Origin: Acrocarpospora macrocephala | Lineage (GTDB): Bacteria > Actinomycetota > Actinomycetes > Streptosporangiales > Streptosporangiaceae | Reading direction: 5' to 3' | Length of the DNA: 64,000 nt | NCBI RefSeq assembly: GCF_009687865.1 | Contig: NZ_BLAE01000004.1 | Span: 1-64,000, forward strand | Shown: positions 25,494 through 55,235 of the stretch, in pieces | Layout of the letters: the number at the start of each line of letters is the position of its first letter | Numbering within the stretch: position 1 is the stretch's first letter | The notes under the pieces: generated by a model | What the model was told of the DNA's origin: nothing | The model's database searches: none | The model's input: only the letters and a program-made list of their open reading frames with translations | Made by a program: the position numbers and the translations under genes

Positions 25494-25532
25494 CGATGAT
25501 CCTCACCTGGGCGGCTCTGTCAGGCTTGACGA

Positions 25533-25544
25533 TACAACGATGTA
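25533..25544. promoter_or_regulatory. LacI operator 1, TACA-ACGA-TGTA
   Basis: The perfect 4-base arms around ACGA share the core CAACGATG-N-AAC with operator 2, 44 bases away. It overlaps a candidate minus-strand -10 GTTAC/TGTTAC (25547-25542) that lies 17 bases from TTGTAA (25570-25565), which would serve the regulator gene. Confidence 0.55.
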
Positions 25545-25563
25545 ACAAGACTGAACAGAGGTA

Positions 25564-25592
25564 TTTACAACGTCGTTCCAACGATGGAACAT
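25564..25592 (+). promoter_or_regulatory. ABC importer promoter with LacI operator 2 (GTTCCA-ACGA-TGGAAC)
   Basis: TTTACA (25564-25569) and GAACAT (25587-25592) are spaced by 17 bases. The perfect inverted repeat GTTCCA-N4-TGGAAC at 25575-25590 covers the spacer and the -10, an ideal repressor position. It shares its central ACGA and flanks with operator 1. The promoter assignment is weaker than the operator assignment. Confidence 0.55.
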
Positions 25593-25711
25593 GTCCTCAG
25601 CCTGACCCCGGGCAAGCAGACTAGCGCGGGGACCTGCGGCGCAACACAGATCTGATACGGCTCTGCCGTACGAATCCCCCCGGTGCTGAGCTGGGACGGA
25701 AGGTCAACCTC

Positions 25712-26965: not shown

Positions 26966-26974
26966 CCGAAGCTT

Positions 26975-27004
26975 CCGGTCCACCGCCCGCGCGCGGTGGA
27001 CCGG
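26975..27004 (+). terminator. 12-bp perfect hairpin between binding protein and permease genes
   Basis: The arms 26975-26986 and 26993-27004 are fully complementary (CCGGTCCACCGC and its complement) around a 6-base loop, 10 bases after the binding-protein stop. Hairpins here typically attenuate or stabilise mRNA, giving excess binding protein over permease. No U-tract follows. Confidence 0.6.
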
Positions 27005-27030
27005 ACCGCATCGTGCCTGAAAGGAATGGA

Positions 27031-27918: not shown

Positions 27919-28759
27919 CGCCCGGTCCGGGGTGGCGCGCGGGCTCCGGCGCACGGCGGCGGCCGCCTCGTGGCTCGTGCTGATCGTGGCGGCGCTGGCG
28001 ACGATCCTGCCGTTCGTGTGGATGGTGGGCGTGTCGCTGCGTACACCGGCCGACCTGTACGCCGATCCCGCCCAGCTGTGGCCGAGCACGATCAGCCTGG
28101 ACGGTTACCACGCGGTGCTCACCCAGTTGCCGTTCGTGCGGCTGGTGTTCAACACGTTCGTGTTCGCCGGCGGGACGACCGTGATCCTGGTCTTCCTGGA
28201 TTCGCTCGCGGGATACGCCCTGGCGCGGTTGCGGTTCCGCGGCCGGCAGGCGATCTTCCTGCTGATCCTGGCCACGCTGATGGTGCCGTTCCAGGTGACG
28301 CTGATCCCCGTGTTCCTGACGCTCTTCGACCTGGACTGGCTCAACACCTTCCAAGGTCTGATCATCCCCAGGGCGACCAGCGCTCTCGGCATCTTCATGC
28401 TGCGCCAGTTCTTCCTGACGCTCCCCCGCGAACTCGACGAGGCCGCGCACATCGACGGGGCCAATTCATTCCAGATCTACTGGCGGGTGATCATGCCGCT
28501 GGCGAAACCCGCGCTGGCGTCGCTGTTCGTCATCCAGTTCATGGCGCTGTGGAACGACTTCCTCTGGCCGCTGGTCGTTTCCAGCACGATCGAGATGCGG
28601 ACCCTGCCGTCCGCGCTGACCCTCTTCTCCAGCCAGTCCGGCGTCGACCACGCCGCGCTCATGGCCGGCGCCGCCATCTCCCTGGCCCCGCTGGCCGTGG
28701 CCTTCCTGCTCGCCCAGCGCTTCTTCGTGCAGGGCATCGCCACCACCGGCCTCAAATAA
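27908..28759 (+). CDS. Sugar ABC transporter permease (MalG type)
   Basis: The 283-residue product has six membrane segments (ASWLVLIVAALATILPFVWM first) and the EAA loop EAAHIDGANSFQIYWRVIMP. The ending VQGIATTGLK is the family's usual C-terminus, thought to touch the ATPase. Its start overlaps the previous permease gene by 11 bases. The gene leads directly into the GH51 gene 17 bases downstream, so import and intracellular hydrolysis are co-expressed. Confidence 0.93.
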   Translation: MAADARSGVARGLRRTAAAASWLVLIVAALATILPFVWMVGVSLRTPADLYADPAQLWPSTISLDGYHAVLTQLPFVRLVFNTFVFAGGTTVILVFLDSLAGYALARLRFRGRQAIFLLILATLMVPFQVTLIPVFLTLFDLDWLNTFQGLIIPRATSALGIFMLRQFFLTLPRELDEAAHIDGANSFQIYWRVIMPLAKPALASLFVIQFMALWNDFLWPLVVSSTIEMRTLPSALTLFSSQSGVDHAALMAGAAISLAPLAVAFLLAQRFFVQGIATTGLK

Positions 28760-28776
28760 CCAACGACAGGAATATC

Positions 28777-30297
28777 GTGCTCACTTGCCACGTCACGCTC
28801 GATCCCGCGTTCCGGATCGGCACCGTCAACCCGCGCCTGTTCGGCTCCTTCGTCGAGCACATGGGCCGATGCGTCTACGGCGGAATCTTCGAGCCCGGCC
28901 ATGAGGAGGCCGACACCGACGGCCTGCGGCTGGATGTGCTGAAGCTGAGCCGCGAGCTGGGGGTGACCGTGATCCGCTACCCCGGCGGGAATTTCGTCTC
29001 CGGGTACCGCTGGGAGGACGGCGTCGGCCCGGTGGAACAGCGCCCGCGACGGCTGGACCTCGCCTGGCGGTCGGTTGAGACCAACGAGTTCGGCTTCAAC
29101 GAGTTCATGACCTGGGCGCGCCGCGCCGAGGTGGAGCCCATGATGGCGGTCAACCTGGGCACGCGCGGCATTCAGGAAGCCTGTGACCTGCTCGAGTACG
29201 CCAACCACCCCGGTGGCACCTATTGGTCGGACCTGCGCGTGTCCCACGGCGTGGCGGAGCCGTACGGCATCAAGCTGTGGTGCCTGGGCAATGAGATGGA
29301 CGGGCCGTGGCAGGTCGGGCACAAGAGCGCGGACGCCTACGGCGCGCTGGCGGCGGAGACCGCGAAGGCCATGCGGCAGGTGGATCCCAGCGTCCAGCTC
29401 GTGGCCTGTGGCAGCTCGAACGACCGCATGCCCACGTTCGGCTCGTGGGAGGCGACGATCCTCGATCACACCTTCGAGCATGTGGACTACATCTCGCTGC
29501 ACGCCTACTTCGAGAAGGCCGGCGATGACCGGGCGAGCTTCCTGGCGTCCGGGGTGGCGATGGATCGCTTCATCGAAGGCGTGGTGGCGACCGCGGATCA
29601 CGTCGCGGCGAAGAAGCGGTCCCGGCGCAAGCTGATGCTCTCGTTCGACGAGTGGAACATCTGGTACGAGAGCCGCTTCGCCGGATACACCAACCTGGAG
29701 TGGGCACAGGCCCCCCGGCTCATCGAGGACGAGTACACGACCGAGGACGCGGTCGTCGTCGGGTCGCTGATGATGAGCCTGCTCCGGCACGCGGACCGGG
29801 TGGGCGTCGCCTGCCTGGCCCAGCTGGTCAACATCATCGCGCCCATCCGCGCCGAACCCGATCGCCCGGCCTGGCGGCAGACCACCTTCTACCCGTTCGC
29901 GCTCACCGCCCGGCACGCGCGCGGCGAGGTGCTGCGCGTCGAGCCGATCACGCCCACTTACGACACGGCTCAGCACGGCGACGCTCCGGTCGCCGATGTC
30001 GTCGCCACTCATGATGCCGAAAGCGGCCAGGTCACCATCTTCGCCGTCAATCGCAGCGAGACCGAAACCGTCCTGCTCGAGGCCGCGTTGCGCGCCCTGC
30101 CCGGGCTGCGGATCGTCGAGCACCTCGTGCTGGGCGGCGTTCCCGGCGAGCTGCTCGAAGGCAACTCGGCGGACGCGCCCGAGCGGGTCGCGCCGCGCGG
30201 CGGTACCGGCGCCGCCATCGACGCCTCCCACCTGCTGACGGCTCCGCTGCCGCCGGCCTCCTGGACCATGCTCCGGCTAGCTCAGCCCATCGCCTGA
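28777..30297 (+). CDS. Intracellular GH51 alpha-L-arabinofuranosidase
   Basis: The 506-residue product has no signal peptide. The start GTG at 28777 is preceded by ACAGGA. NPRLFGSFVEHMGRCVYGGI and VIRYPGGNFVSGYRW open the family 51 barrel. Glu173 in LGNEMDGPW is the acid/base and Glu292 in SFDEWNIWY the nucleophile, positions matching characterised GH51 enzymes almost exactly. A C-terminal jelly-roll completes the fold. It should release arabinose from imported arabino-oligosaccharides. It follows the two permeases and precedes the large secreted GH51-like gene by 21 bases, making one catabolic operon. Confidence 0.95.
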   Translation: MLTCHVTLDPAFRIGTVNPRLFGSFVEHMGRCVYGGIFEPGHEEADTDGLRLDVLKLSRELGVTVIRYPGGNFVSGYRWEDGVGPVEQRPRRLDLAWRSVETNEFGFNEFMTWARRAEVEPMMAVNLGTRGIQEACDLLEYANHPGGTYWSDLRVSHGVAEPYGIKLWCLGNEMDGPWQVGHKSADAYGALAAETAKAMRQVDPSVQLVACGSSNDRMPTFGSWEATILDHTFEHVDYISLHAYFEKAGDDRASFLASGVAMDRFIEGVVATADHVAAKKRSRRKLMLSFDEWNIWYESRFAGYTNLEWAQAPRLIEDEYTTEDAVVVGSLMMSLLRHADRVGVACLAQLVNIIAPIRAEPDRPAWRQTTFYPFALTARHARGEVLRVEPITPTYDTAQHGDAPVADVVATHDAESGQVTIFAVNRSETETVLLEAALRALPGLRIVEHLVLGGVPGELLEGNSADAPERVAPRGGTGAAIDASHLLTAPLPPASWTMLRLAQPIA

Positions 30298-30318
30298 ATC
30301 ACTCCGAAGGAGTCGGCC

Positions 30319-33300
30319 ATGCGCACCCGCTATTTATTAAGAACCCTACTCATCTTATGCATCGTCGCGATGTCGGCAGCCGTGCCCGGCTCGGCCAGCG
30401 CCGCCGGCGCCAACACCATCTCCATCGACGCCTCCGCACCCGTCGGCGTGGTCCAGCCCGGGGTCACCGGCCAGATGATGGAGTGGGCGACGGACGGGAT
30501 GAACGAGTCCTGGGCCGAACGGGTCAAGGACCGCTCGTTCGAAACCGAACGGGTCTCCTCCGCGCGCAGCACCCTCTACGACGGATTCACCGGCACCACG
30601 CTCGACGCTTCGAAATGGCAGCCGACCAGCCTGGACACCGCGCCCGCCGGAACCGTCACGGTCTCCGGCGGGAACGTCGCGGTGGCGGGCAGCACGCCCG
30701 GCCGGTTCGGCATCATGAGCAACACGGTGCCGGACACCCGGTATGCGACCGTCAGCGTCGAAACGAAGATCGTCTCTTACAGCGGCACGAACGCGGTCCT
30801 GAGCGTCTACGGCGGCACCGGCGCGGGGGACTTCAGCCATTTCGCCGAATTCGCCATCGAGGGCGGGTCGCTCAAGGTGTTCGCCGACGGGCAGCCCACC
30901 TGGGTCGGGGGCGCGGCGACCACACCGGCGACGTTGCGGATCGACGTCTCGGGGCTGGCGGGCTCGGCGCGTACCCTCAACTTCTTCTACAACGGCACCC
31001 TGGTGCACACCCTCTCCGGCTTCACCATGCTGCCGGGCACCTACCGTGCCTTCCTGTACGGCTGGACGGGCACCGTCACCGCCGACTACCTGGCGCAGAC
31101 CCCGGACGCCACCTATGACGCCTTCGAGGGGACGGCGCTCTCCCCGCGCTGGACGCCCACCAGGCTCGAGGGCGCCACGAACGGATCGGTCTCCGTGTCC
31201 GCAGGCAAGGTCACGGTGACCGGCGGCGCGAATTCCCGGTACGGCGTGCTTTCCGACCACATCCGCAACAGCGCGGTCGACTGGACCACGATCGACGCCC
31301 GGCTGAGCAGCGTCAGTGGCGTCAACGGCCTGCTCAACATCTACGGCGGAACAGGTGCCGGAGATTTCACGAAATTTATGGAATTCGGGGTTGAAGGTGG
31401 CGTCGCCCGCGTCTTCACCAGCGACGGCACCGGCAACTTCACCGGCTCCGCTGTCAGCCTGCCGGCCACGTTCACCGTACAGATCAGTCCCTACTGGTCC
31501 AACGGACGGCTCTTCAGGTTCTTCGTCAACGGCGTGAAGGTGCATGAACTGGCCACCCGCTTCGACGTGCCCGCACCGGACTTCCGGCTCTTCCTGTACG
31601 GCTTCGGCGCCTCGACCACCAGCTGGGACTACGTGAACGTCCGCCAGGTGCACATGCTCGACCGCTGGGACAACCACTTCGAGGGCGGGCCCGGCATCAG
31701 CGCGGCCTGGACCAACTCCACCCTCGCCGGAGGCTGGGGCACGTCCAGCATGTCCAACAGCCAGCTGGTGATCAACGGGGCCGCGAACAGCCGCTACGGC
31801 ATCATGTCCGCACCCGTCGGCGAGAGCGATGTCTACGACTACACGGTCGAGGCCAAACTCGACTCCGTCACCGGCGTCAACGGCCTCCTCAACATCTACG
31901 GCGGAACAGGGCGCGGCGACTTCTCGAAATACCTCGAGTTCGGCGTCGAGGCCGGCACCCTGCGCGTGTTCGGGGACGGCGTGACCCCGTGGACGGGCGC
32001 CGCGATCAGCCTGCCCGCCGTGCTGAGGATCGAGGTCGGGCGCTGGAACGGCACCGGCAGAAACGTGAACTTCTTCGCCAACGGCCGCCTCGTGCACAGC
32101 CTCACCAACACCGCGGCCGTACCCAACGGCGACTACTCCGCCTTCCTGTACGGCTTCGGCACCTCGGTCACCCAATGGGACTACCTGACCTGGTGGCGCA
32201 CCGACGGCTGGACCGAGGACGGCCACGCCGACCAGGCCACCTACTCGCAGGACCGGACCGGCTTTAACGGCGCCTACGCGCAACGCGTCGACATCACCCA
32301 GCACACCACCGGCCGCAAGGGCGTCAGCCAGGGCGCCATCGCGGTGACCGCCGGCCGGTCGTACCAGGTCAGCGCATATCTCAAGCAGTCCGGGCTGAGC
32401 ACACCCGTGACGGTCACCCTCGGACCGGACATCGGCGACAGCCCGTCCTACCCCGCCTACGCGAGCACCACCTTCACCGGCGTCGGCGCGGGCTGGACCA
32501 AGTTCACCGCCACCGTCACCCCGTCGACCACCGATCCCTACGCCAAGCTCTTCATCGGTACGGCGAGCACCGGCACGCTGTGGATCGACATGGTCGGCGT
32601 CATGCCGCTCGACCCGGCGGAGGTCACCCTCGGGGGCTGGCGGAAGGACTTCGTCGATCACCTGACCGCGCTCAAGCCGGGCGCGATCCGCTGGCCAGGC
32701 GGCATCATCGCCGACAGCTACACCTTCACCGACGGCATCGGCTCCCGCGACAACCGCCCGCCGATGCACTACAACCAGTGGGACGCGCTCTGGATGACCA
32801 ACGACGTCGGCACCGACGAGATCCTCGGGCTCGGCGAGGCGCTGGGCATCCCGGTCTACCTGAACGTCAACTGGGGCAGGGGAACCGCGACGACCGCGGC
32901 CAACTGGGTCGAGTACACCAACGGCTCGACCGGCACGCCGTACGGCGCGCAGCGTGCGGCCAACGGACGCAGCCAGCCCTGGGCGGTGCGCACGTGGGAG
33001 ATCGGCAACGAGGTGTGGGGGTCGTGGACCCCCGGCTGGACCAGCGCGGCCAACTACGCCGCCAGCTACAACACCTTCCGCGACGCCATGGCGGCCAAGG
33101 ACGCGACGATCGCGTTCATCGCCGAAGGCGGTGACGGCACCAACAACGACCAGGCGTGGAACACCACGGTCCTGACCACGTCGGGCAGCCGGATGGATCA
33201 CCTGTCCATCCACTACTACAGCCCGCAGCCGTTGCCGGCCCAGTACGACAGCACGGCCGTCTACCAGGCGTCCGTCGGCGCGCCGGCGGTGATCGCGGAC

Positions 33301-34230
33301 CGCATGAACACCGCCACCGACACGATCCTCGCCAACGGCGGCGGCCGGGACATCAAGATCGCCGTGACGGAGCACAACGCGATGTACTTCAACGAGGAGC
33401 ATCGCCGTACCCGCACCGTGGAAGGCGCCCTGCAGGAGGCCGGACTGCTCAACCTGTTCATGCGCCGAGCCGACGTCAACGAACTGAACGCGGCCTCGGC
33501 CCTGGTCAACTTCTGGGACGGCAGCGCCATCCGCCTGGCCAACCGGGGCAGCTTCGTCACCCCCGGCTACCTGGTGCAGAAACTGGTCGCCGACCGGCAC
33601 GGCCCGCTCCTGCTGCCGACCACCCTGAGCGGACCGACGTACAACGCACCGGCCCTGGGCAACCTACCCGCGCGCGCCAACATCCCGATGCTGGACATCA
33701 CCTCCACCCGATCAGCGGACGGAACGAAGCTCTACATCTCGGTGATCAACCGGGACCCGTCCGCCATCCAGACCTCCACCATCAATCTGACCGGAGCCGG
33801 AACCATCGGCTCCACCGCGACCGTGAGCACGGTCAACTCGGCCGGTTACCTGGACCAGAACACCTGGCAGAACCCGACACTGATCCAGACGGCCACCAGC
33901 ACCATCACCGGAGTCGGAGCGACCTTCGACTACAACTTCCCCGCACACTCCTACACCGTCCTAACAGTCAACATCGGCGCGAGCGCGATAAGCGCCCCAA
34001 TCATCATCGGCCGCGTCACCACAACCGCCGGCGCCGCAATCCCCGCAGCCACGGTCGACGCCGGCGGCGGCATCACCGGCACAACCGACACCAACGGCTA
34101 CTACCGGCTACCCGCACCGACCGGCACCTACTCACTAACCGTCTCCAAGCCAGGCTTCACCACGAAGACCCGCACCAAGGTCGAGGTCTCCAGCCTCGGC
34201 GCCACTCCCCTACCGGTCCGCCTCTCCTAA
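30319..34230 (+). CDS. Secreted 1303-residue GH51-like enzyme with three tandem jelly-roll-like repeats
   Basis: A signal peptide (about 1-29, ending GSASA) precedes a short N-terminal GH51 piece (VTGQMMEWATDGMNESWAER). It is then interrupted by three repeats of about 180 residues (about 87-265, 266-451, 452-627) sharing the core NxYGGTGxGDFxKxxEFGVEGG. A carbohydrate-binding-like domain follows (about 628-770), then the catalytic barrel with RWPGGIIADSYTF, acid/base Glu898 in WEIGNEVWGS and nucleophile Glu1018 in AVTEHNAMYF. The C-terminus (about 1225-1303) is a carboxypeptidase-regulatory-like domain, GTTDTNGYYRLPAPTGTY. GAAGGAG precedes the ATG. It likely debranches arabinoxylan or arabinan outside the cell and feeds the importer. 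Confidence 0.88.
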   Translation: MRTRYLLRTLLILCIVAMSAAVPGSASAAGANTISIDASAPVGVVQPGVTGQMMEWATDGMNESWAERVKDRSFETERVSSARSTLYDGFTGTTLDASKWQPTSLDTAPAGTVTVSGGNVAVAGSTPGRFGIMSNTVPDTRYATVSVETKIVSYSGTNAVLSVYGGTGAGDFSHFAEFAIEGGSLKVFADGQPTWVGGAATTPATLRIDVSGLAGSARTLNFFYNGTLVHTLSGFTMLPGTYRAFLYGWTGTVTADYLAQTPDATYDAFEGTALSPRWTPTRLEGATNGSVSVSAGKVTVTGGANSRYGVLSDHIRNSAVDWTTIDARLSSVSGVNGLLNIYGGTGAGDFTKFMEFGVEGGVARVFTSDGTGNFTGSAVSLPATFTVQISPYWSNGRLFRFFVNGVKVHELATRFDVPAPDFRLFLYGFGASTTSWDYVNVRQVHMLDRWDNHFEGGPGISAAWTNSTLAGGWGTSSMSNSQLVINGAANSRYGIMSAPVGESDVYDYTVEAKLDSVTGVNGLLNIYGGTGRGDFSKYLEFGVEAGTLRVFGDGVTPWTGAAISLPAVLRIEVGRWNGTGRNVNFFANGRLVHSLTNTAAVPNGDYSAFLYGFGTSVTQWDYLTWWRTDGWTEDGHADQATYSQDRTGFNGAYAQRVDITQHTTGRKGVSQGAIAVTAGRSYQVSAYLKQSGLSTPVTVTLGPDIGDSPSYPAYASTTFTGVGAGWTKFTATVTPSTTDPYAKLFIGTASTGTLWIDMVGVMPLDPAEVTLGGWRKDFVDHLTALKPGAIRWPGGIIADSYTFTDGIGSRDNRPPMHYNQWDALWMTNDVGTDEILGLGEALGIPVYLNVNWGRGTATTAANWVEYTNGSTGTPYGAQRAANGRSQPWAVRTWEIGNEVWGSWTPGWTSAANYAASYNTFRDAMAAKDATIAFIAEGGDGTNNDQAWNTTVLTTSGSRMDHLSIHYYSPQPLPAQYDSTAVYQASVGAPAVIADRMNTATDTILANGGGRDIKIAVTEHNAMYFNEEHRRTRTVEGALQEAGLLNLFMRRADVNELNAASALVNFWDGSAIRLANRGSFVTPGYLVQKLVADRHGPLLLPTTLSGPTYNAPALGNLPARANIPMLDITSTRSADGTKLYISVINRDPSAIQTSTINLTGAGTIGSTATVSTVNSAGYLDQNTWQNPTLIQTATSTITGVGATFDYNFPAHSYTVLTVNIGASAISAPIIIGRVTTTAGAAIPAATVDAGGGITGTTDTNGYYRLPAPTGTYSLTVSKPGFTTKTRTKVEVSSLGATPLPVRLS
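30577..32196 (+). repeat. Three tandem ~180-codon repeats inside the secreted GH51-like gene
   Basis: Repeat units start near 30577, 31114 and 31672. Each carries the sequence YGGTGxGDF, followed by an EF(A/G)(I/V)E segment, a VF(A/T/G)xDG segment and a closing FxxFLYG(W/F) strand. Units 2 and 3 are closest, sharing GLLNIYGGTG. They look like LamG/concanavalin-type beta sandwiches and probably bind polysaccharide. Confidence 0.85.
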
Positions 34231-45015: not shown

Positions 45016-46074
45016 TCATTTATCAGGATCTTTGGCGACGAGTGTGGAATCGCGGGCCTCTGCGCGGCCTTCGTCGCGGGCGCGGGCGAGGAGGTCGGCG
45101 AGGCGGTGGCGGCGTCGGCGGGTGATGGTGCGGGAGGAGAGGAGGAGGGCTCCGAGGAGTATGGCGAGGGCCAGTTGGGGCCAGGGCAGGGTCCAGATCG
45201 TCACGTCGACCGCGGTGGGCTCGATCAGGGCGCCGGATGGGACGCCGCCCTGGACGGCAGGGGACACGGTGACGCTCGTGCTGAGTGGTCCTAGCGCCCA
45301 GACTCCTGCGATGCGGGTCTCGATCTCTCGGCTGTCGCCCGGGAATATCTGCTCGACGCCGGTCTTGGCATCCCGTTCGGCCAGGCCGGTCAGGTCGGTG
45401 ACCGTTACCCCGCCGGTGCCGGTCACCGCGATGTTGCCCTTGTTCGTCGCGGTGTATTTGACCCGGATGGTGCCGGCTGAGAAGGGGTTCCACGGCTGCT
45501 CGTACGTGGCGGTGAGGTCGTCGACGGCCACCGCCGCCGTGATCGTGCCGGTGGCCCGCATCATGACCCGGAACCCCACCCGGCTCTCGACGGCGACCGT
45601 GCCCCGGGCACTGGTGACCGTCGCCGCGATGCCGGCCGGATGGTCTCCCGGTGTGGCGTCACCGGGCACGGTGATGGTGAACGGCACCACCTTCGTCTCC
45701 TTGGCCCCGACGGTGACCTCGTCCTGGACCTTGATCCAGGTGCCGCCGTCCACCGAGGAGCGGTCGGACTGGAGCATGTTGAAGCGGCCCTTGTCGGTGA
45801 GGTAGCCGTCGGCGGCCTTCAGGGCGAAGACGGCGGCGCCGTCGCTGAAGTTCCGCACGGCCAGGTGCTCGGTCACGCTCTGACCCGGGTCGAGCGTGAG
45901 CTCGATCCACCGGCGGCCGTCCGGGCCCTGTTGGTTGGCCGGCTGGACCGACCAGGTGAGTGTTGGCTTGGCCGGTTCCGCCATGGCGCCGGTGGGCGCG
46001 ATCGGAACGGTGAGGAGCACCGCCGCCAGCACGGCGAGGAGCCGCGGCAATATCTGGTGCAATGTTCGGATCAT
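45016..46074 (-). CDS. DUF916-type surface protein with C-terminal membrane anchor
   Basis: The 352-residue product has a signal peptide (LLAVLAAVLLTVPIAPTGAMA). LTWSVQPANQQGPDGRRWIELTL is the opening of the DUF916 domain (WSVQPAN, given with its first strand), followed by a second immunoglobulin-like domain and a C-terminal membrane helix (LALAILLGALLLSS) with a strongly basic cytoplasmic tail (RTITRRRRHRLADLLARARD). In Firmicutes, DUF916 proteins bind WxL-domain proteins on the cell surface and bridge to peptidoglycan. Here the gene follows a WxL-like secreted protein and two giant glycosidases. GGAGGA lies seven bases before the ATG at 46074. Confidence 0.8.
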   Translation of the reverse strand: MIRTLHQILPRLLAVLAAVLLTVPIAPTGAMAEPAKPTLTWSVQPANQQGPDGRRWIELTLDPGQSVTEHLAVRNFSDGAAVFALKAADGYLTDKGRFNMLQSDRSSVDGGTWIKVQDEVTVGAKETKVVPFTITVPGDATPGDHPAGIAATVTSARGTVAVESRVGFRVMMRATGTITAAVAVDDLTATYEQPWNPFSAGTIRVKYTATNKGNIAVTGTGGVTVTDLTGLAERDAKTGVEQIFPGDSREIETRIAGVWALGPLSTSVTVSPAVQGGVPSGALIEPTAVDVTIWTLPWPQLALAILLGALLLSSRTITRRRRHRLADLLARARDEGRAEARDSTLVAKDPDK

Positions 46075-46094
46075 GGCGAAATCCTCCGGCATAG

Positions 46095-46118
46095 GGGGGC
46101 CGCGTCGCCGCGGCCCCC
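46095..46118 (-). terminator. 10-bp intercistronic hairpin before the DUF916 gene
   Basis: GGGGGCCGCG (46095-46104) and CGCGGCCCCC (46109-46118) pair perfectly around TCGC. It lies 11 bases after the WxL-like stop and 21 bases before the DUF916 start. It may partly terminate, so that less anchor than secreted partner is made, or stabilise the upstream mRNA. Confidence 0.6.
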
Positions 46119-46128
46119 ACCGCGCGTT

Positions 46129-46749
46129 TTATTCGAACAGGGACAGGGTCAGCGTCGAAGCGTACGAGCCCGCGGCGACATCCGCCGGGGTGCGCAGGAA
46201 CAGATCGGCGTTGACGGTGAAGGCGCCACCGGCGACGGAGCCGGAATCGAAGGTCGAGACCAGGAGCTCCTGGTCGACCAGGCCGACGTTGTTGCCGGGC
46301 TGGGTCGGCTCGTCGAGAACGGTCACGACCTCCTCACCTTCGGCGACCAGGCCGGTCTCGCCACCGTCGATCAGGTGCGGCTTCCAGCCGAGGTGGCCGG
46401 CGCTGATGGGCGCCTGACCGCTGTTGCCGGCGAAATCGGTCGCGTTGCCGAGCACGGCCCAGGCGGAGCCGGCGGGCACCTCCTCCATCGTGCGGGTGTC
46501 GGTGACCGTCACCGTCGGCAGGGTGCCGAGGAACTCGCGCGTCTCCAGGGTCGAGTCGCCCTCGGCCAGCGCGACGGAGTCGGCGGCGATCGACAGGGCG
46601 AGCACGCCGGGTTCCTTGATCTCCTCGATGTCGACCGTCACCTCCACACTGGTGCTGTCGCCGGGGTCGGCCATGGCCGGCGCCTGCAGGGCCACCGACG
46701 CGGTCAGGGCGGCAGCCGCGGCGAGCAGCCATTTGTGCTGGTTCTTCAT
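46129..46749 (-). CDS. WxL-like secreted surface protein
   Basis: The 206-residue product has a signal peptide (MKNQHKWLLAAAAALTASVA, cleavage near AMADP). The mature protein is acidic and beta-rich: SVEVTVDIEEIKEPGVLALS, PTVTVTDTRTMEEVPAGSAW, then FTVNADLFLRTPADVAAGSY and STLTLSLFE. The last strands resemble the ending of WxL domains, where a YxSTLTWTL segment closes the sheet, but the defining second WxL motif is not recognisable. It lies between the GH43 gene and the DUF916 gene, a typical WxL-locus order. ATG 46749 is preceded by GGAG. Confidence 0.65.
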   Translation of the reverse strand: MKNQHKWLLAAAAALTASVALQAPAMADPGDSTSVEVTVDIEEIKEPGVLALSIAADSVALAEGDSTLETREFLGTLPTVTVTDTRTMEEVPAGSAWAVLGNATDFAGNSGQAPISAGHLGWKPHLIDGGETGLVAEGEEVVTVLDEPTQPGNNVGLVDQELLVSTFDSGSVAGGAFTVNADLFLRTPADVAAGSYASTLTLSLFE

Positions 46750-46799
46750 GTGATGCTCCATTTTGCGTGATTGCTGGTGATGAGGATAGAGATGGGGGG

Positions 46800-49700
46800 T
46801 CAGGTGCAGGTGAGGGAGGAGTGTTCGGCGGGGTAGACCGAGGTCGTCTCCTCGCCGTCCACGGTCCCGGTGGCGCGGACGGTGACCGAGCCCGCCGCGA
46901 TCGAGGCCTCCCGGGTGGCGAACGACTGGTAGGCGTTGGCGCCCGGCGCGACGTTCGGGAAGGATCGCTCGCCGTACGCGGTCTCGACGGTGATGGTCGC
47001 CGCCGCCTCGTGGTCGTTGCGCGCCTGCACGCCTACGTACGCCTTGCCGGCGATGCACCGCGGCGCGACCGTGACCGTGACGGGGATCTTGGCCGGCTCA
47101 GTGCCCGGTTCGTCGGCGAAGACCCGCCATTCCGTGATCGCGACCGCGGAGAAGGTGGTGCCGTTGCCGTTGGCCCGGACCGTGGCCCGCACCCGGGGCG
47201 TGGTGATCGGGGTGAAGGTGACGGTGTTGAACGCGGTCGTGCTCGTGCCGTACGCGGACGCGCCGGGCACGTCACGCCAGGCCGAGGTGACCTCGTCCCA
47301 GTACTGGAGCACCCACCCGTCGGGCTGGGCGACGCCGTCGCCGGTGCCCTGGTTGGAGTCCCGCCAGAACTTCAGCTCCGACGAGATGATCCGCACGGGG
47401 CGGGACCACTCGTACTGGACCCACTGGGTCGCCGGGCGGGTGCCGGACCAGGTGCCCCAGATCTGCGCCTGGCTCGGGTTGGCCGGGTCGGCGTTGTCGT
47501 TCAGGGCGGTGACGCTGTTCCAGCCCGCCGTGTAGGAGGCGGTCGGGGTCGCGATCGGCGCGATGTTGCCGGTGAGCGGCCCGGACAGGTCCGCCGGGAT
47601 GACGACCGTCTTGGCGGTCTCCAGGTTCCCGGCCACGTCGAGCGCCCGGAACGACACGGTGTGCTTGTTGGCGTCGGGTGCCGTGATGAAGCCGCCGGTG
47701 GAGGGGGTCCATGGGCCGGTGCCGATGGCGTACTCGATGCCGGCGACCCCGGAGGTGGCGTCGGCCGCGAGCACCTTGACCGTCCGGTTGGCGGTGTTCA
47801 GGGTGCCCACGCTGACCGGCGCCGTGGCGTCGATCCGTACGGTGAGGTTCGCGGGCGCCGAGACGTTGCCCGCGCGGTCGGTCGCGGTGGCCGTGACGGT
47901 GTGCTGGCCGTCGCCGGTGACGTTGACGTCGGCCTGCCGGGTGTCCGTGGTGACGACCGGCTGGCCGCTGTCCACCCGCGACTCGATGGTCAGCCGGCCG
48001 CCGCGGTCGTCGGCACCGGTGACGCGCACCCGCACCGCGGAGCGGAACCAGCCGGCGCTGCCCGCGCTGCCGCTGGGCGTGAGCGCCAGCGTCGGCGCCG
48101 TATGGTCACCCTCGGTGTCACCGGGCGAGATGACCTTGACCTGCGCGGAGACGCGGCCGGCGGCGTAGCCGAGCACGGTGCCCTGGATCGTGAACGTGCC
48201 AGGCTCGGCGACCTGTTCCGGCGTCACCGGGTCCCAGAAGACCGGCACCCGCAGCGTTTCGCCGCCGAACGGCACGTCGACGGTGCCGGGCAACTCCCGC
48301 TCGCCCACTTCGACCGTCAGTGCCGGTGGCGTGACGGACTCCGGCTGCGCGGCGAGGATCTTCCACTCCTCGACCGCCACCGCCGAGTAGGTGCTGCCGT
48401 TGGTCGACGCGTCGAACACCGCGCGGACCTGCGTGGTGGTCACCGGATTGAACGTGGTGTTCTGGAAGCCCTGCGTGCTGGTCGGGTAGCCGCTCGGGTT
48501 CGGCACGTCGGCCCACTGCGCGGTGCCGAGGTTCCAGTACTGGATCTTCCAGCGGGCGGGTGCGGCCACGCCCACGCCGCTGCCCTGCGGCTGGTCGTTC
48601 CAGAACTCGATCTGGGAACCGGAGATCCGCATCGGCTGGTCCCAGGTGTACTGCACCCACTGCTGCGGCGGGTTGCTGCCGGTCCAGGTGCCCCACATGT
48701 CCGGCGGCAGCGGGTTGGACCGGACGATCTCGTCGTTGAGCGCCTTCACCCAGTACTGCGTGGGCACGGGCTCGTTGGAGACGGCGACCTTCGCCTCCTG
48801 CGCGATGTTCGGCCGGGGCGTGAGATCACGTCCCTTGACGGGCGTCGGCGTGACGAGCTTCATCCGCGGCGGGGTCTGCGTGTCGTCCCACTCGACCGGG
48901 TCGATCGCCACCGAACGGCGGAAGTGGCCGCCACCCACGGCGTCCGCGGTGTGGTACGCGATGTACCACTTGCCGTTGAACTCCAGGATGCCCGGGTGGC
49001 TCGTGGTCGAGGAGACCGGCCGGAGCATGGTGCCCCGGTAGGTCCATGGCCCCTCGGGCGACGCGGCCGTCGCGTAGGCGATGCAGGCGTGGTAGTTCGC
49101 CGGGGTGCACGCCGAGGTCGGGCCGGCGTTGTTCCCGGCGTACGCCATGTAGTACGTGCTGCTGCGCTTGAAGATCCAGGCCGCCTCGAAGAAGCCGGTC
49201 AGGCCGGTGACGGTGCGCTGAGTGCCGACCGGGGTCTTCATGTCCTGCTGGAGTTCCAGCATCCGCAGGTTGCTGAACGAGCCCCAGTAGATGTACACCC
49301 GCTGGTTCGGCGCCGTGCCGTCGACGAGGATCGTCGGGTCGATGTTGTGGATGGTGTTGGCCGTGGGCACCCGCTGGGAGATGATCGGCCCGCCCGCGTG
49401 GTCGGTCCACGGGCCGGTCGGGCTGTTCGAGACGGCCACGCCGATCGCGAACTTGTCAGATGCCGGACTGTCCCGCTCGTTGATCGGGACGTACCAGTAG
49501 TAGCGCCCGTCCACGCCGCGGATCACCTGGCCGGCGTACGCGCGTCCTGGCGTCGCCCAGGCGAAGACCTGTTCCGGCCGCATCAGCGAGGGGTAGTGGG
49601 TCCACTCTCCCGCTTGGACATCCGCGGTGCGGAAGGCGCCCCACTCGTTCATGATGAAGTCGTTCGTGGACGGCCCGGCCTGGTCGTGGCCGGTGTAGAT

Positions 49701-49958
49701 ATAGAGCTCGTCGCGGCCGCTCTCGTTGCCGGGGGCGCCGGCGGGCACGACGACCGGCGCCGGGTCCGCCGAGTAGTAGCTGCCGTCGCCGAGGATGGGG
49801 TTGCGGGTGTTGGTGAAGGTGACGGAGTCGGCGGCGTAGGCCGGAACGGGAACCCCGATCAGGGAGCCGGCCAGGAGAAGGGCGACCGCCGCCGGGACGG
49901 TCCTGCGTAACCGGCGCTTCAGTGATGAGACGGCGCTGCGCCTCGCGGCGTTCTTCAA
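46800..49958 (-). CDS. Secreted modular GH43 enzyme with two discoidin-like domains
   Basis: The 1052-residue product has a signal peptide (about 1-42), then a GH43 five-bladed propeller (about 43-385) with SADPAPVVV (base Asp), NIDPTILVDG (modulator Asp) and GFFEAAWIFKR (acid Glu). Two discoidin-like regions follow (about 395-540, with MWGTWTGSNPPQQWVQYTW; about 810-945, with IWGTWSGTRPATQWVQYEW). Between them are a Big_4-type domain (VTPEQVAEPGTF) and Ig-like domains. The C-terminal 90 residues form a Cys-bracketed domain shared with the upstream giant hydrolase. Arabinofuranosidase, xylosidase or galactosidase activity is possible on a complex glycan. Confidence 0.88.
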   Translation of the reverse strand: MKNAARRSAVSSLKRRLRRTVPAAVALLLAGSLIGVPVPAYAADSVTFTNTRNPILGDGSYYSADPAPVVVPAGAPGNESGRDELYIYTGHDQAGPSTNDFIMNEWGAFRTADVQAGEWTHYPSLMRPEQVFAWATPGRAYAGQVIRGVDGRYYWYVPINERDSPASDKFAIGVAVSNSPTGPWTDHAGGPIISQRVPTANTIHNIDPTILVDGTAPNQRVYIYWGSFSNLRMLELQQDMKTPVGTQRTVTGLTGFFEAAWIFKRSSTYYMAYAGNNAGPTSACTPANYHACIAYATAASPEGPWTYRGTMLRPVSSTTSHPGILEFNGKWYIAYHTADAVGGGHFRRSVAIDPVEWDDTQTPPRMKLVTPTPVKGRDLTPRPNIAQEAKVAVSNEPVPTQYWVKALNDEIVRSNPLPPDMWGTWTGSNPPQQWVQYTWDQPMRISGSQIEFWNDQPQGSGVGVAAPARWKIQYWNLGTAQWADVPNPSGYPTSTQGFQNTTFNPVTTTQVRAVFDASTNGSTYSAVAVEEWKILAAQPESVTPPALTVEVGERELPGTVDVPFGGETLRVPVFWDPVTPEQVAEPGTFTIQGTVLGYAAGRVSAQVKVISPGDTEGDHTAPTLALTPSGSAGSAGWFRSAVRVRVTGADDRGGRLTIESRVDSGQPVVTTDTRQADVNVTGDGQHTVTATATDRAGNVSAPANLTVRIDATAPVSVGTLNTANRTVKVLAADATSGVAGIEYAIGTGPWTPSTGGFITAPDANKHTVSFRALDVAGNLETAKTVVIPADLSGPLTGNIAPIATPTASYTAGWNSVTALNDNADPANPSQAQIWGTWSGTRPATQWVQYEWSRPVRIISSELKFWRDSNQGTGDGVAQPDGWVLQYWDEVTSAWRDVPGASAYGTSTTAFNTVTFTPITTPRVRATVRANGNGTTFSAVAITEWRVFADEPGTEPAKIPVTVTVAPRCIAGKAYVGVQARNDHEAAATITVETAYGERSFPNVAPGANAYQSFATREASIAAGSVTVRATGTVDGEETTSVYPAEHSSLTCT

Positions 49959-49987
49959 GGTGGTGCGTTCCTTACTCTCAGCGGAGG

Positions 49988-50020
49988 TTGGTGGCGGCGC
50001 CGCGGGGGCGCCGCCACCAA
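49988..50020 (-). terminator. 14-bp intercistronic hairpin between giant hydrolase and GH43 genes
   Basis: The arms 49988-50001 and 50007-50020 pair perfectly over 14 positions around five bases. It begins eight bases after the stop of the giant hydrolase and ends 30 bases before the GH43 ATG. It should modulate read-through or stabilise the upstream message. Confidence 0.65.
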
Positions 50021-50028
50021 GGGGGGTG

Positions 50029-53000
50029 CTAGCCGCAGTTGAGCGCGCCGTACGGCACTGCCACCGGTACGGTGACCGGCGTGCCGTCGACGGTTCCAGT
50101 GACCTTCACCGTCGCGGTGCCGGCCTGGATCGACTTGGCGCGGGTGTTGAACGCCTGGTAGGCGAACTTCCCGGGCGCGACGTTGGCCACGGTCCGCGAC
50201 CCATACGGCGTGCTCAGCTCGATGGTGAGCGGCACGTCGTCGTCGTTGCGGACGTTGAGGGTGACGTAGACGTTCGTGCCGGTGCACTGGGTGCGCGCCT
50301 GCACGTCGGTCTCCCAGATCGGGCCGCCCTCGCCCACGGTGAGCGTCAGCGTGGTCCGGATGGTGCCGGCCTCGCTGACGTAGTCGGGCAGGATCAGGTC
50401 GCCGATGACGGTGTAGGTGCCGTCGGTGTTGACGATCTCCGGGTTGAACCGCCAGTTCACCCCGATGGCCTGGTTGTCCCTGGATCCGTCGTTGTAGGAG
50501 ACCTCCACCTTGCTGGGCAGGTATGGCAGCTCGCCCACCTCGACGTGCTGCTGGAACGACTCGGCGCCCTGGATCGAGATGCCGCCCTGGGACATCTCAG
50601 GCCGCACGTAGACGCGGGCCTCGGCGATCAGGCCGTAGGCGTCGTTGGTGCCGTAGACCACGAACGGGTCGACGTTGGGCTCCGCGACCTGGTCCGGCGT
50701 GATCGGCTGCCACTTGAACCCGACGGTGCCGCGGGCGCCGCTGGCGTAGACCGCGTCCAGGGTGGCCGGCAGGGTGGGCACCATGCCCACGCCGGTGCGG
50801 ATGAGCACCGGCGAGCGCACCGTGTCGACGGTCTCGCCGTTGGCGCGCCAGCGCAGCACGCCCGTGCCGGCGCCGCCGGTCATGAGGCCCCAGATGCGGA
50901 TGCGCATCCGGCTGGTCGTCACCGGTTCGAAGTTGAAGCGGTTGTAGGTGTTGGTGGCCAGACCGTCGGCGTACGTCGATCCGTTCAGGGTCACCGGAGT
51001 CCAGGTGGTCCCGTCCGTGGAGGTCTCGATGGCGTAGGTCGTGGCCGTGGGGCGGCGGGTGCCGCCGTTGTCGTCGTACCAGTAGATGTCGGTCGAGGAG
51101 AGCCGCACCGGTGAGGTCCACTCGTACTGGATCCACGCCTCGGTCGCGGGGCTGGTGCCGTTGCGCGGCTGGCCCCAGTTGCCCCAGCCGGTTCCGGCGC
51201 CCGGGTTCGAGCTGCTCGGGGTGGTGGCCTCGTTGACCCGCGCGTGGTTCTCCCACGACGCGGTGCCGCTGGTGGTGATCGTCGCGGTGGAGCCGAACTC
51301 CGCGACGACGTCCTTCTTGGCGAGGGTCGCCGACACGGTCGCCGTCGACCGCTTCTCGCCGTCGTCGGCGAAGAACCGGAACACGTAGTCACCGGCGACG
51401 GTGCCGGTCACCCGGGTCGACAGCGCCTTGGAGTCGGCGAAGATGACGCCCGCGCCCTGCGGCGCGGAGACGGTCTCCCAGCCGAAGGTGAGCTCGTCGT
51501 CGTACGGGATGCCGTCGTCGGACGCCGTGCCGACCAGCCTGGTGGACAGGTTGCCGTCCGCCGAGCCGTCGCGCGTGGCGGTGACGGTGGGCGCCTGGTT
51601 GGAGACGTCCGGCACGTCACGCCCCGAGTTGAACACCTGGATCTCGGAGATCGCGGTGTAGAAGGTCGGGTTGTTGGTGAAGACGATGCGGACCTTGTCC
51701 GCCGTCACGGTGTCGAAGAGCGCCTCGTTGAACTTCGCCGACGGGACGGACGGGTTCTTGAACTGGCCCGGCACTTCCTTCCAGCCGCCGCTGCCGTTGG
51801 GCACCTGGACCCACCAGCGCGCGGGCTCGCGGTAACCGCCGGCCTGGCGGTCGCTGACGAAGAACACCTTCGCGTTGTCGAAGGACTTGGCCGACCCCAG
51901 ATCGAGCTCGACGTAGCCGTTCTTGTCGGTCGTGCCGTAGTTGCCCCAGTAGGGCTCGTTGGCGGTGACGCCGTCGGTCACCGCCGCCAGCGTCACGGGC
52001 TGCTCAGTCTCCTTGATGGCGCCGGGCGTGTAGTTCATCGAGGTGGTGCTGAAGCCGGGCGTGTGGAACTGCCGCCACGGCGCCGGCCGGGTGCCCTGCT
52101 GGGTGTGGGACGAGGCGAGGGTGGCGCCCTTCGCCAGGTTCGCCGCGTCCTCGGTGAGGTCGACTCCGGCCGTCTTGAGGTAGCTGACGACGCGGTCGTC
52201 CTCGATCGGGGTGTTCACCGCGGTCGGGAAGTCGCTCCCGGCGGCCGCGGTGAAGGTGACGGTCACGCCGTCCTCGGCCTGGACCTGGTTGGTCTTCGGG
52301 TCGTAGGTGAGCTTGCCGAGCTTGTCGGCGCTGGCCTTCTTCTCGCCGTTCAGGAACAGGCTGTAGCCCGCGCCCAGACCGTACTTGGTGCCGTCGGGGT
52401 CCCAGACGATGGTGACGTCCTGCCCGTGGTACCGCAGGTTGTTGACCATGAAGTGGTCGTAGCCGAACTTGATCGGCCACAGTTCGATCTTGTCGTCGGA
52501 GCGCGGCTGGATGCCCGCCATGTCCTCGACGAAGATGTAGTTCATGTTGCCGAGCATCACGTGGTTCGGGTTGTTGCGGTTGTAGGTCTTGGCCGTCGCG
52601 TTCCAGTTGGAGTAGTACTCCGACTGGTTCGGGACCCGCATGTCCGCGTTCGGGTAGATGCTCCAGGCCATCCAGTCAAGCAGCCGCTTGGCGTAGGCCG
52701 GGGTGATGTACTTCTGCTCCGGGTCGTAGTGGCGCAGCGCCGACCGTACGGCGCGGTACTGCACGGTGAAGTTGATGTTGGAGAAGTTGTTGGAGCCGCC
52801 GACCCCGTAGGCCGTCCGGTCGTACTGGTTGGCGGTGTAGAACGGGAAGATCGGGAAGTTGTCGCCGTAGGTCAGGAAGCGGTAGCCGTCGACGTACTGC
52901 TGCCACTGGTCGTACGGGATGAGGTTCTCGGCGTAGACGTCGTAGAGGTTCGACTCCTTGGCCGGGATCAGGCCGCGGGCCGCCGGGGGCAGCGGGTTGG

Positions 53001-54759
53001 CCTTGCCGTTGGAGCTGGCCCCGCTGGTGGCGCCGTGCGACGTGGCGGCCAGGAACATCCGCGTGTCGGGGCTCCACAGCCGGTTCAGGATCGCGTCGCG
53101 GATGCCGTTGGCGCTGGCCGCCATCTGGTCGACCTTGGCCTGGCCGGCGCCGGAGATCTGGTACAGCTGCCGGGCGGCGTCGAAGGCGCCCCACACGTAC
53201 GCCGACTCGGGACGCTCGATCGTCCGCGCGCCGGGCGCGCCGGCGCCGGTCTTCGGGAAGCCGAAGGAGATGGCGTCCGCGTCGTTGCCCGGCATGTAGT
53301 TGGTGTCGTAGGCGATGAGCTTGTCGTTGTTGCCGTCGTAGTGCTGGAGCTGGCCGACGCCGTCGCCCTCGAAGAAGTGGGCGAACTTCTCGGCGACCTC
53401 CTTGCCGCCGCCGTGCACGTTGTAGGCCTCAAGGCCGGCCGTGCCGATGTACTGCGAGTAGTGGTTGTTCCAGCTCGTGTGACCGGGGCTGTCGAGGAAG
53501 GCCGAGGAGCCGGACAGTTCGCCGATGTTGAGGATCTGGCCGTACGGCAGATACGGCGTGCGCAGCCACTTGGTGTCCTGCAGGTGCATCGGCTGGGTCA
53601 GCGCCACGGCGTTCTGGTAGAGGTTCACTCCCTCGATCGTCGTGGGGTACTGGTAGACGTGACCGGTCGCGTTGGCGTCGAGGGTGTTGTAACGCTCCCC
53701 CCACCAGCGGTAGACGATGGCCTTCTCGAGCGCGGGGTCGGGGACGTTGATGTAGGGCACGTCCTGCGCCCACTGGCGGTTGAACGCGGTGATGCCGGTG
53801 CGCACCGCCACGGCCGGCGCCAGCTCGGCGTACTCGTGGTAGCTCTCCACCGTCTTCGGCAGCGTGGCCGAGGAGACCGCGCCGACCACGGAGAGCGAGA
53901 CCGAGCCACCGGCGGGCACAGTGACCTCGCGGTCCAGGTTGGCGCCGGTGCGGGTGAAGCCGGCACCGGTGAGGTCGGTCCTGACCGTGTTCCACGGGGT
54001 GTCGACGAGCCCGTTGTTGGAACCGCTGGTGATGACGCGGGTGCCGGTGAGCTCGGCCGCGGTGGCTCCCGCCTGGGTGGCCAGCGGCGAGGCGGCCCGG
54101 ACCGTGAAGGTCGCCGCCGACCCACCGGGGTTGGTGAAGGTGATGGCGGTGACCGCGACGTTGTCGTAGGTGATGAACTTCGTCAGATCGGCGGTGACGC
54201 CGGTGGTGCCGATCGTGTACTGGCTCTTGGCGTGGCTCGGCGCGTTGAACCGGTTCGCGTTCACCTCGGTCACGGTCTGCCCGGGCACGGTGACGGTGTA
54301 CAGGTTGCCGAGGTTGTTGGGACCGCCGACGAAGGTGCTGCCGGCGAAACCCATGACGGTGAAGTTGTTGTTACTCGCGCCGCGCATGTAGAGGGAGCGG
54401 CCCCGAGTCATCAGCACGGTCGACCCGAGCGCTCCGCGAACGCCCAGCACGCGGTCGAGATAGTAGTCCGTGCCGCCGGCGGCCAGGTCCTTCTCGAAGA
54501 TCGACTGGTGCAGGTTCGCCGCGGTGTACGGCACGCCCGGCTTGAGCTGGTTGGCGACGTCGCCGACGTTGGCGTAGACCGGGTCGCCGATGTCCATGAC
54601 GTGGCTCTGCCCGTTGGTGTAGACCCCCACGTCGCCCTCGTTGCCGGGCAGAATCGGGCCGTCGGCGTGAGCGGCGGGTGGCAGGCCGATCACCCCTCCC
54701 GCCACGAGCGCGGCGAGAGCCGCCCACGTGGGAGCCCTCCTTAAGCGTCTGGTGATCAT
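50029..54759 (-). CDS. Giant secreted glycoside hydrolase (alpha/alpha-barrel type) with discoidin-like modules
   Basis: The 1576-residue product has a signal peptide (TWAALAALVAGGVIGLPPAA) and a beta-sandwich region to about residue 330. A helical barrel (about 335-880) contains IVYRWWGERYNTLDANAT, LQDTKWLRTPYLPYGQI, ERPESAYVWGAFDAARQLY and YAENLIPYDQWQQYVDG. This resembles MGH1/GH63-like (alpha/alpha)6 glycosidases, but I cannot assign a CAZy family. Then come a discoidin-like domain (DLGSAKSFDNAKVFFVSDRQ), an Ig-like segment (DVSNQAPTVTATRDGSADG), a second discoidin-like domain and two Big_4 domains (one with ITPDQVAEPNVDPFVVYG). The final 90 residues match the GH43 C-terminus. GGAGGAG precedes the ATG. 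First gene of the operon. Confidence 0.82.
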   Translation of the reverse strand: MITRRLRRAPTWAALAALVAGGVIGLPPAAHADGPILPGNEGDVGVYTNGQSHVMDIGDPVYANVGDVANQLKPGVPYTAANLHQSIFEKDLAAGGTDYYLDRVLGVRGALGSTVLMTRGRSLYMRGASNNNFTVMGFAGSTFVGGPNNLGNLYTVTVPGQTVTEVNANRFNAPSHAKSQYTIGTTGVTADLTKFITYDNVAVTAITFTNPGGSAATFTVRAASPLATQAGATAAELTGTRVITSGSNNGLVDTPWNTVRTDLTGAGFTRTGANLDREVTVPAGGSVSLSVVGAVSSATLPKTVESYHEYAELAPAVAVRTGITAFNRQWAQDVPYINVPDPALEKAIVYRWWGERYNTLDANATGHVYQYPTTIEGVNLYQNAVALTQPMHLQDTKWLRTPYLPYGQILNIGELSGSSAFLDSPGHTSWNNHYSQYIGTAGLEAYNVHGGGKEVAEKFAHFFEGDGVGQLQHYDGNNDKLIAYDTNYMPGNDADAISFGFPKTGAGAPGARTIERPESAYVWGAFDAARQLYQISGAGQAKVDQMAASANGIRDAILNRLWSPDTRMFLAATSHGATSGASSNGKANPLPPAARGLIPAKESNLYDVYAENLIPYDQWQQYVDGYRFLTYGDNFPIFPFYTANQYDRTAYGVGGSNNFSNINFTVQYRAVRSALRHYDPEQKYITPAYAKRLLDWMAWSIYPNADMRVPNQSEYYSNWNATAKTYNRNNPNHVMLGNMNYIFVEDMAGIQPRSDDKIELWPIKFGYDHFMVNNLRYHGQDVTIVWDPDGTKYGLGAGYSLFLNGEKKASADKLGKLTYDPKTNQVQAEDGVTVTFTAAAGSDFPTAVNTPIEDDRVVSYLKTAGVDLTEDAANLAKGATLASSHTQQGTRPAPWRQFHTPGFSTTSMNYTPGAIKETEQPVTLAAVTDGVTANEPYWGNYGTTDKNGYVELDLGSAKSFDNAKVFFVSDRQAGGYREPARWWVQVPNGSGGWKEVPGQFKNPSVPSAKFNEALFDTVTADKVRIVFTNNPTFYTAISEIQVFNSGRDVPDVSNQAPTVTATRDGSADGNLSTRLVGTASDDGIPYDDELTFGWETVSAPQGAGVIFADSKALSTRVTGTVAGDYVFRFFADDGEKRSTATVSATLAKKDVVAEFGSTATITTSGTASWENHARVNEATTPSSSNPGAGTGWGNWGQPRNGTSPATEAWIQYEWTSPVRLSSTDIYWYDDNGGTRRPTATTYAIETSTDGTTWTPVTLNGSTYADGLATNTYNRFNFEPVTTSRMRIRIWGLMTGGAGTGVLRWRANGETVDTVRSPVLIRTGVGMVPTLPATLDAVYASGARGTVGFKWQPITPDQVAEPNVDPFVVYGTNDAYGLIAEARVYVRPEMSQGGISIQGAESFQQHVEVGELPYLPSKVEVSYNDGSRDNQAIGVNWRFNPEIVNTDGTYTVIGDLILPDYVSEAGTIRTTLTLTVGEGGPIWETDVQARTQCTGTNVYVTLNVRNDDDVPLTIELSTPYGSRTVANVAPGKFAYQAFNTRAKSIQAGTATVKVTGTVDGTPVTVPVAVPYGALNCG

Positions 54760-55206: not shown

Positions 55207-55235
55207 AACATAGAAGAAGCCTGTGACGCTGTCAA
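55207..55235 (-). promoter_or_regulatory. Strong sigma-70-type promoter of the surface-glycan operon
   Basis: On the minus strand TTGACA (55235-55230) is the perfect -35, and TATGTT (55212-55207) the -10, at 17 bases. Operator copy 1 abuts the -10. The predicted transcript would have a leader of about 440 bases before the giant hydrolase ATG at 54759. Confidence 0.7.

Follow-up and report, generated by a model that had tools for sequence, protein, structure and literature searches.

What roles do a small WxL-like protein and a membrane-anchored DUF916 protein play in an operon whose other genes encode two very large secreted glycosidases? The question is raised by a 64,000-nucleotide stretch of Acrocarpospora macrocephala DNA (contig NZ_BLAE01000004.1, positions 1 to 64,000; hereafter the window), part of a 12.1 Mb genome. 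Four adjoining minus-strand genes encode a GH121-like (glycoside hydrolase family 121) protein of 1576 residues, a GH43 enzyme of 1052 residues, a short WxL-like protein and a DUF916 protein, separated by 70, 50 and 54 bp. This arrangement, including the small gaps and the two large proteins, had been described in an earlier note on this DNA and is confirmed here, with the larger hydrolase now placed as GH121-like. The earlier note overlooked a C-terminal domain (CTD) common to both enzymes, which is likely the physical link between the glycosidases and the anchor pair. Our preferred reading, to which we assign a probability of roughly 0.6, is that the CTD is a docking tag and that the small WxL and DUF916 proteins hold the enzymes at the cell surface.

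The GH121 and GH43 proteins both end in one domain of ~85 residues lying between two near-invariant cysteines. It was located by hidden Markov model (HMM) matches at 50,032–50,286 in the GH121 gene and at 46,803–47,057 in the GH43 gene (both minus strand), the latter directly upstream of the small WxL gene; the two copies are 45% identical. The third of the three occurrences in this genome is in a GH127-like frame on contig C139. An AlphaFold2 model of the domain shows a seven-stranded immunoglobulin (Ig)-like sandwich with a predicted local distance difference test (pLDDT) score of 97.6. In a scan of 106 CTDs, each Pfam or NCBIfam family had a match in at most one of them at an E-value of 0.01. 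Kinship to a solved fold was rejected, the best Foldseek match having an E-value of 3.8e-3, with none at or below 0.001 in the PDB and template modelling (TM) scores to the query of at most 0.54 among the 50 matches listed. Profile comparison likewise led us to reject the CTD as a WxL relative.

The domain is consistently terminal. It ends at most 8 residues before the stop codon in 248 of 252 distinct frames (three have longer tails and one is open at a contig end), and no LPxTG motif occurs in the last 60 residues of any of the 252. The proteins that carry it form 55 clusters, and the 13 scanned singly include GH43, GH127 and GH95 enzymes, an M14 peptidase, a multicopper oxidase, a 5'-nucleotidase and a ThuA/GSDH protein; family tallies cover 39 of the 55 cluster representatives and list the 25 commonest of 60 families. 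Given these varied carriers, the idea that the CTD is specific to arabinan enzymes was rejected. A CTD was never found in one frame with a WxL or DUF916 domain among the 271, 159 and 130 frames scanned.

The product of the gene at 46,129–46,749 (minus strand) is a secreted protein 206 residues long, a 309-residue open reading frame at this place being an over-extension upstream. The earlier note had called it WxL-like. As a direct member of the Pfam WxL family it was rejected, since PF13731 matches neither this protein nor anything else in the genome at E-values up to 10; the label stands by way of a chain of profiles. Relatives of the protein fall into two groups, the short form (class A), to which it belongs, and longer proteins that carry a C-terminal version (class B). 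The class A profile matches class B at an E-value of 4.8e-24, and the class B profile matches annotated WxL proteins of Bacillales plasmids with a probability of 96.8% (E-value 2.1e-10). PF13731 itself matches two longer actinobacterial WxL sequences below its cut-off (E-values 4.6e-4 and 1.6e-3). Class B carries V-x-D-x-R-G-T-x-A-G-W-x-L, the motif that has been described for Firmicutes (PMC9772566; PMC1534035). In class A, D-x-R and the first motif, W-x-V, are invariant, and the C-terminal motif is L-S-L in nearly all members. Because class A leads to class B and class B to the Firmicutes proteins, the 206-residue protein is by transitivity a divergent small WxL, an assignment made at the level of sequence through the intermediate family. 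The mature protein is acidic, with a computed isoelectric point of 4.05, as are the CscB proteins of Firmicutes (PMC1534035). Its closest named matches, among the best 80 of 280 stretches, are from Acrocarpospora corrugata (88%) and Streptosporangium subroseum (86%).

The neighbouring gene (45,016–46,074, minus strand) encodes a 352-residue DUF916/WxLIP-type protein that scores 32.5 bits against PF06030 (cut-off 27.3). Hydropathy peaks at residues 8–26 and 293–311 correspond to a signal peptide and a single C-terminal membrane helix, and the protein has a basic tail; the membrane-anchored DUF916-type protein described previously was therefore correctly recognized. If the gene starts at the alternative ATG at 46,092, the gap to the WxL gene shrinks to 36 bp. 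DUF3324 (WxLIP_HBD) was absent from its Pfam matches at E-values up to 1. In the same analysis, which covered the window's own proteins, the GH121, GH43 and short WxL proteins showed only N-terminal hydrophobic segments. Two other loci have a DUF916 match split across several frames (L255, 10,642–11,596; L269, 10,712–11,661), and the gene there looks broken or misassembled. In a further locus (L038, 4,194–5,312), a class B WxL protein has an N-terminal HtaA domain, and its gene is followed by another WxL gene and one for DUF916; WxL/DUF916 pairs elsewhere therefore have other, non-enzymatic partners.

To relate the short WxL gene to the tag, a short WxL was counted at an HMM score of 150 or more and pairing was taken to mean a same-strand CTD gene no more than 400 bp upstream. 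The main set consisted of 78 loci fetched by WxL similarity alone, from the best 80 of 280 confirmed stretches. A CTD gene lies at most 191 bp upstream, on the same strand, of all 80 of the 80 short-WxL genes in this set, a figure that covers the relatives closest to the window's protein because of how the set was drawn, and a DUF916 gene lies downstream of 59 of them. A CTD gene also precedes the short WxL in 33 of 39 cases in a second set that overlaps the first, in two of three plasmid loci and, within 490 bp upstream, in eight of ten further loci from a distant family. With identical genes removed and these ten distant loci excluded, 105 of 112 short-WxL genes directly follow a CTD gene. 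The upstream genes belong to 22 protein clusters, which include a peptidase, a nucleotidase and a ThuA/GSDH protein, and because of this breadth the short-WxL gene goes with the tag and not with one enzyme. Homology, gene order and co-occurrence support the proposed coupling of the anchor pair to the glycosidases, but the pairing is general rather than specific to glycan hydrolases.

Of the exceptions to the pairing, six occur in the second set: three at contig edges (L168, L170, L171), one partial (L169) and two that differ, with the WxL–DUF916 genes some 5 kb before the CTD genes (L188, L189). Another is on a plasmid (L287), and in two loci the CTD gene is on the other strand, 3–4 kb away (L311, L312). 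L131 and L134 each hold a class A gene truncated at a contig edge; these account for the two low-scoring WxL matches that have a CTD upstream. Within the first 40 neighbourhoods fetched around matches to PF06030, 6 other genomes share the complete four-gene order, and it was met again in loci fetched afterwards; because of this recurrence the arrangement is not due to chance.

Two observations on these loci stand apart. In three genomes (G097, G119, G425) contig breaks fall within short-WxL genes or next to them (L131, L134, L170–L173, L200, L201), which suggests near-identical copies within one genome and a recent spread of CTD–WxL cassettes. Plasmid pCCh of the plant-associated Clavibacter phaseoli (L286) carries a GH43-CTD gene, a WxL gene annotated as hypothetical and a DUF916 gene in the same order, with a sugar importer cluster adjoining them.

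Co-occurrence across genomes agrees with gene order. Strong short WxL matches were defined by E-values below 1e-20 in a class-level survey of 394 genomes and below 1e-15 in a family-level survey of 150. The number of first-look candidates scored per genome was at most 13 and 8 in the former and at most 20 in the latter, and absences are soft because of this cap. The class survey found a strong short WxL in 21 genomes, all of them among the 34 with CTDs; 43 genomes had a WxL match at an E-value of 1e-4, and the 22 above 1e-20 were not counted as short WxL. The family survey found it in 18 genomes, all within the 20 with CTDs and the 42 with PF06030. Fisher tests that ignore phylogeny give p-values of 2.5e-26 and 2.4e-21. 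PF06030 is matched at an E-value of 0.001 in 20 of the 21 class-survey genomes with a strong short WxL; no such match was found in G326, which has both CTD and short WxL, and in two genomes with both (G292, G451) the PF06030 matches fall below the Pfam cut-off.

We propose that the operon may exemplify an enzyme-display system that is general among actinobacteria. The ~85-residue Ig-like CTD at the end of secreted enzymes would be a docking tag, and the small WxL protein, encoded just downstream, would bind it. The WxL protein would also bind peptidoglycan, the DUF916 ectodomain or both; with the DUF916 protein fixed in the membrane by its C-terminal helix, the enzymes would be held at the surface, in the cellulosome-like manner that the earlier note had envisaged for the glycosidases. 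A broader version, in which this cohesin/dockerin-independent assembly of CTD-bearing proteins of dozens of kinds, WxL adaptor and DUF916 anchor also builds the Cellulosimicrobium 'hemicellulosome', is tentative, and we place it somewhat below even odds.

Several observations weigh against the docking proposal. No relationship of the CTD to WxL or to any solved structure could be detected. Compared directly with Firmicutes WxL, class A gives a weak match (probability 3.1%), yet one aligned on the same motif, and its second motif is L-x-L; the AlphaFold2 model of the small WxL protein (25 sequences) is of low confidence (pLDDT 40.3). The Xyl_I multi-enzyme complex of Cellulosimicrobium cellulans came from culture supernatant and not from cells (PMC4562250). 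A strong short WxL is missing from 13 of the 34 CTD genomes in the class survey. In one of these the CTD genes run up to the ends of contigs, just where a WxL gene would be expected (G425); in another only a DUF916 gene lies at a contig edge, and the six CTD genes have room downstream and no WxL (G065). In six the sole WxL match is weaker and of the longer type, with PF06030 also present (G188, G205, G249, G274, G481, G487), and five have a CTD with neither a WxL-type match nor PF06030 (G176, G234, G287, G334, G366). In the family survey, one genome with a weak CTD has neither partner (G084). Because some CTD genomes lack WxL and DUF916, the CTD may be used with other partners or in older roles.

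These genomes are also what an account of free secretion can draw on. By this account the cell releases the enzymes freely, the CTD serves as a stabilizing cap or as a binding module, and the WxL and DUF916 proteins form a separate surface complex that is merely co-regulated. The five class-survey genomes and G084, without either partner at the thresholds used, fit it, as do the six without a short-form WxL, and Ig-like folds often serve as linkers or binding modules. Against it stand the C-terminal position of the CTD and a pairing that follows the tag across 22 clusters, including peptidase, nucleotidase and ThuA/GSDH proteins, a range that a common carbohydrate substrate would leave unexplained. 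We regard free secretion as doubtful, though the best placed of the alternatives.

An assembly that is released rather than retained is unlikely. Here the CTD would dock enzymes into a large released complex, with WxL proteins as scaffold subunits and the DUF916 anchor as a temporary assembly site. C. cellulans F16 secretes Xyl_I, a complex of 17.9 MDa and 27 proteins that include glucanases, xylanases, mannases, peptidases and laccases; its authors find no cohesin or dockerin in the F16 genome and call the assembly unexplained (PMC4562250). The key subunit, M768_06655, is about 200 kDa with the architecture ThuA-GSDH-PKD-CBM6-PKD, and in its free forms the last ~500 residues are missing (PMC4562250). 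Three proteins in our loci (L142, L305, L306) have this domain order plus GH43_C2 and a terminal CTD, with a small WxL gene directly next (L305 and L306 measure 194–199 kDa), and on a C. protaetiae plasmid five CTD genes occur together with WxL and DUF916 genes. That Xyl_I itself contains CTD and WxL is a prediction by analogy, and the extra GH43_C2 domain of the three proteins is not listed in the 2015 paper on Xyl_I.

A CTD that acts as a sorting or export signal, perhaps cleaved by machinery of which WxL and DUF916 would be part, in a logic like that of type IX secretion or PEP-CTERM sorting, is similarly improbable: the domain does come last in unrelated cargo, but it is predicted to fold stably, has a near-invariant cysteine pair and is no short peptide that ends in a hydrophobic or LPxTG stretch.

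Under the docking proposal, the window's copy would display a GH121 beta-L-arabinobiosidase and a GH43 enzyme acting on beta-arabinosides of plant cell-wall glycoproteins. The GH121 gene (50,029–54,759, minus strand) encodes a HypBA2-like protein with an N-terminal signal segment and F5/8C, Big_4 and C-terminal CTD domains. It scores 556 bits against NF041578 (HypBA2), under the equivalog cut-off of 3200 bits, and matches PDB entry 6m5a at an E-value of 1.6e-103. Mutagenesis of HypBA2 showed that three acidic residues matter, Glu383, Asp515 and Glu713 (PMC7263609), and their equivalents are kept here as E354, D471 and E692 (in a 1554-residue model, window 50,029–54,693; spacing 132/198 exact). 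The GH43 gene (46,800–49,958, minus strand) encodes an N-terminal signal segment and Big_4, F5/8C-type, OmpL47-type and C-terminal CTD domains; its product scores 93.1 bits against PF04616 (cut-off 32.2), with 3qef, 3qed and 3qee as nearest PDB entries (E-value about 1e-43 for the first two). By analogy with the Bifidobacterium longum cluster, the operon's task is likely the freeing of beta-L-arabino-oligosaccharides from plant hydroxyproline-rich glycoproteins. A GH127 gene is not beside the operon in the window, though it is in relatives: in Herbidospora mongoliensis, genes for a LacI regulator, a binding protein, two permease-like proteins (read, not scanned) and GH127 precede GH121. The GH127-like CTD protein encoded on contig C139 could dock in trans.

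Other features of the window are of lesser bearing. A sigma-70-like promoter match lies upstream of the operon (55,207–55,235, minus strand); such matches are no more numerous than expected by chance, and it adds nothing. A separate arabinoside-use cluster without CTDs (24,489–34,230), ~10 kb from the operon, encodes two proteins that end in alpha-L-arabinofuranosidase C-terminal domains, alongside a LacI regulator, a binding protein and two proteins that look permease-like from a reading of their sequences. A 918-residue protein (11,777–14,533) combines a CBM2 domain with a weak Sortilin/Vps10-like stretch and presumably resembles beta-propeller xyloglucanases.

The literature searched, which leaves most subscription papers and preprints outside, describes neither the CTD nor its pairing with WxL, nor any display of enzymes by WxL/DUF916 in Actinobacteria. 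DUF916 genes have been mentioned as neighbours of Actinomycetota Ang-2 metalloproteins (PMC12537917), and some actinobacterial DUF916 proteins are already so named in RefSeq. The tag-and-anchor pairing in this soil actinomycete and its relatives may be an unrecognized means by which secreted enzymes are displayed or assembled, with no need for classical cellulosome parts. If so, antibiotic- and biomass-degrading actinomycetes would have a modular enzyme display that needs no sortase signals, a new domain family could be named, and an unannotated WxL branch would gain a function. The assembly of a giant cohesin/dockerin-free complex would become testable, and the CTD would offer a portable tag for surface display.

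Comparison with known systems helps to place the operon. Like the cellulosome, it would equip many enzymes with one small tag and a surface partner; unlike it, the tag is predicted to be an Ig-like sandwich, and Pfam searches found no cohesin or dockerin in the four operon products or in 13 other CTD proteins. Xyl_I is a multi-enzyme assembly without cohesin and dockerin, whose key subunit resembles the proteins of L305 and L306 in architecture and in its ~200 kDa size; it was isolated from supernatant.

The B. longum hyp cluster comprises a GH43 enzyme, which we take to be HypAA, the GH121 enzyme HypBA2, the GH127 enzyme HypBA1 and an ATP-binding cassette (ABC) importer. The operon shares with it the GH121 and GH43 pair and the HypBA2 catalytic residues, and the H. 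mongoliensis locus also has GH127, a binding protein and a LacI regulator upstream. It differs in its added WxL and DUF916 genes and, in the window, in not having GH127 and the importer as neighbours. In Bifidobacterium, a FIVAR-transmembrane region at the C-terminus of HypBA2 is judged to be its cell anchor (PMC7263609); the CTD stands where that tail would be.

Another close parallel is the Firmicutes Csc cluster, which consists of CscA (DUF916), CscB (small WxL), CscC (large WxL) and CscD (LPxTG) (PMC1534035; PMC9772566; PMC10599100). Its large protein ends in a WxL domain thought to anchor the protein (PMC9772566), and AlphaFold2 predicts that a DUF916 strand completes the WxL sandwich, that is, mutual binding (PMC10599100). 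Both systems have a DUF916 protein with a C-terminal membrane helix, a small acidic WxL protein of about 200 residues and a large multidomain partner with its anchoring domain last (putatively so for the CTD); the WxL gene directly precedes DUF916 in several Bacillales plasmid loci as well. In contrast to Csc, the operon has no DUF3324 match, the CTD proteins have no LPxTG in their tails, and the second WxL motif is L-x-L. Its large partners are enzymes, and they end not in a WxL domain but in the unrelated ~85-residue CTD. We place the operon with the WxL/Csc systems and regard its CTD as a new, putative docking domain.

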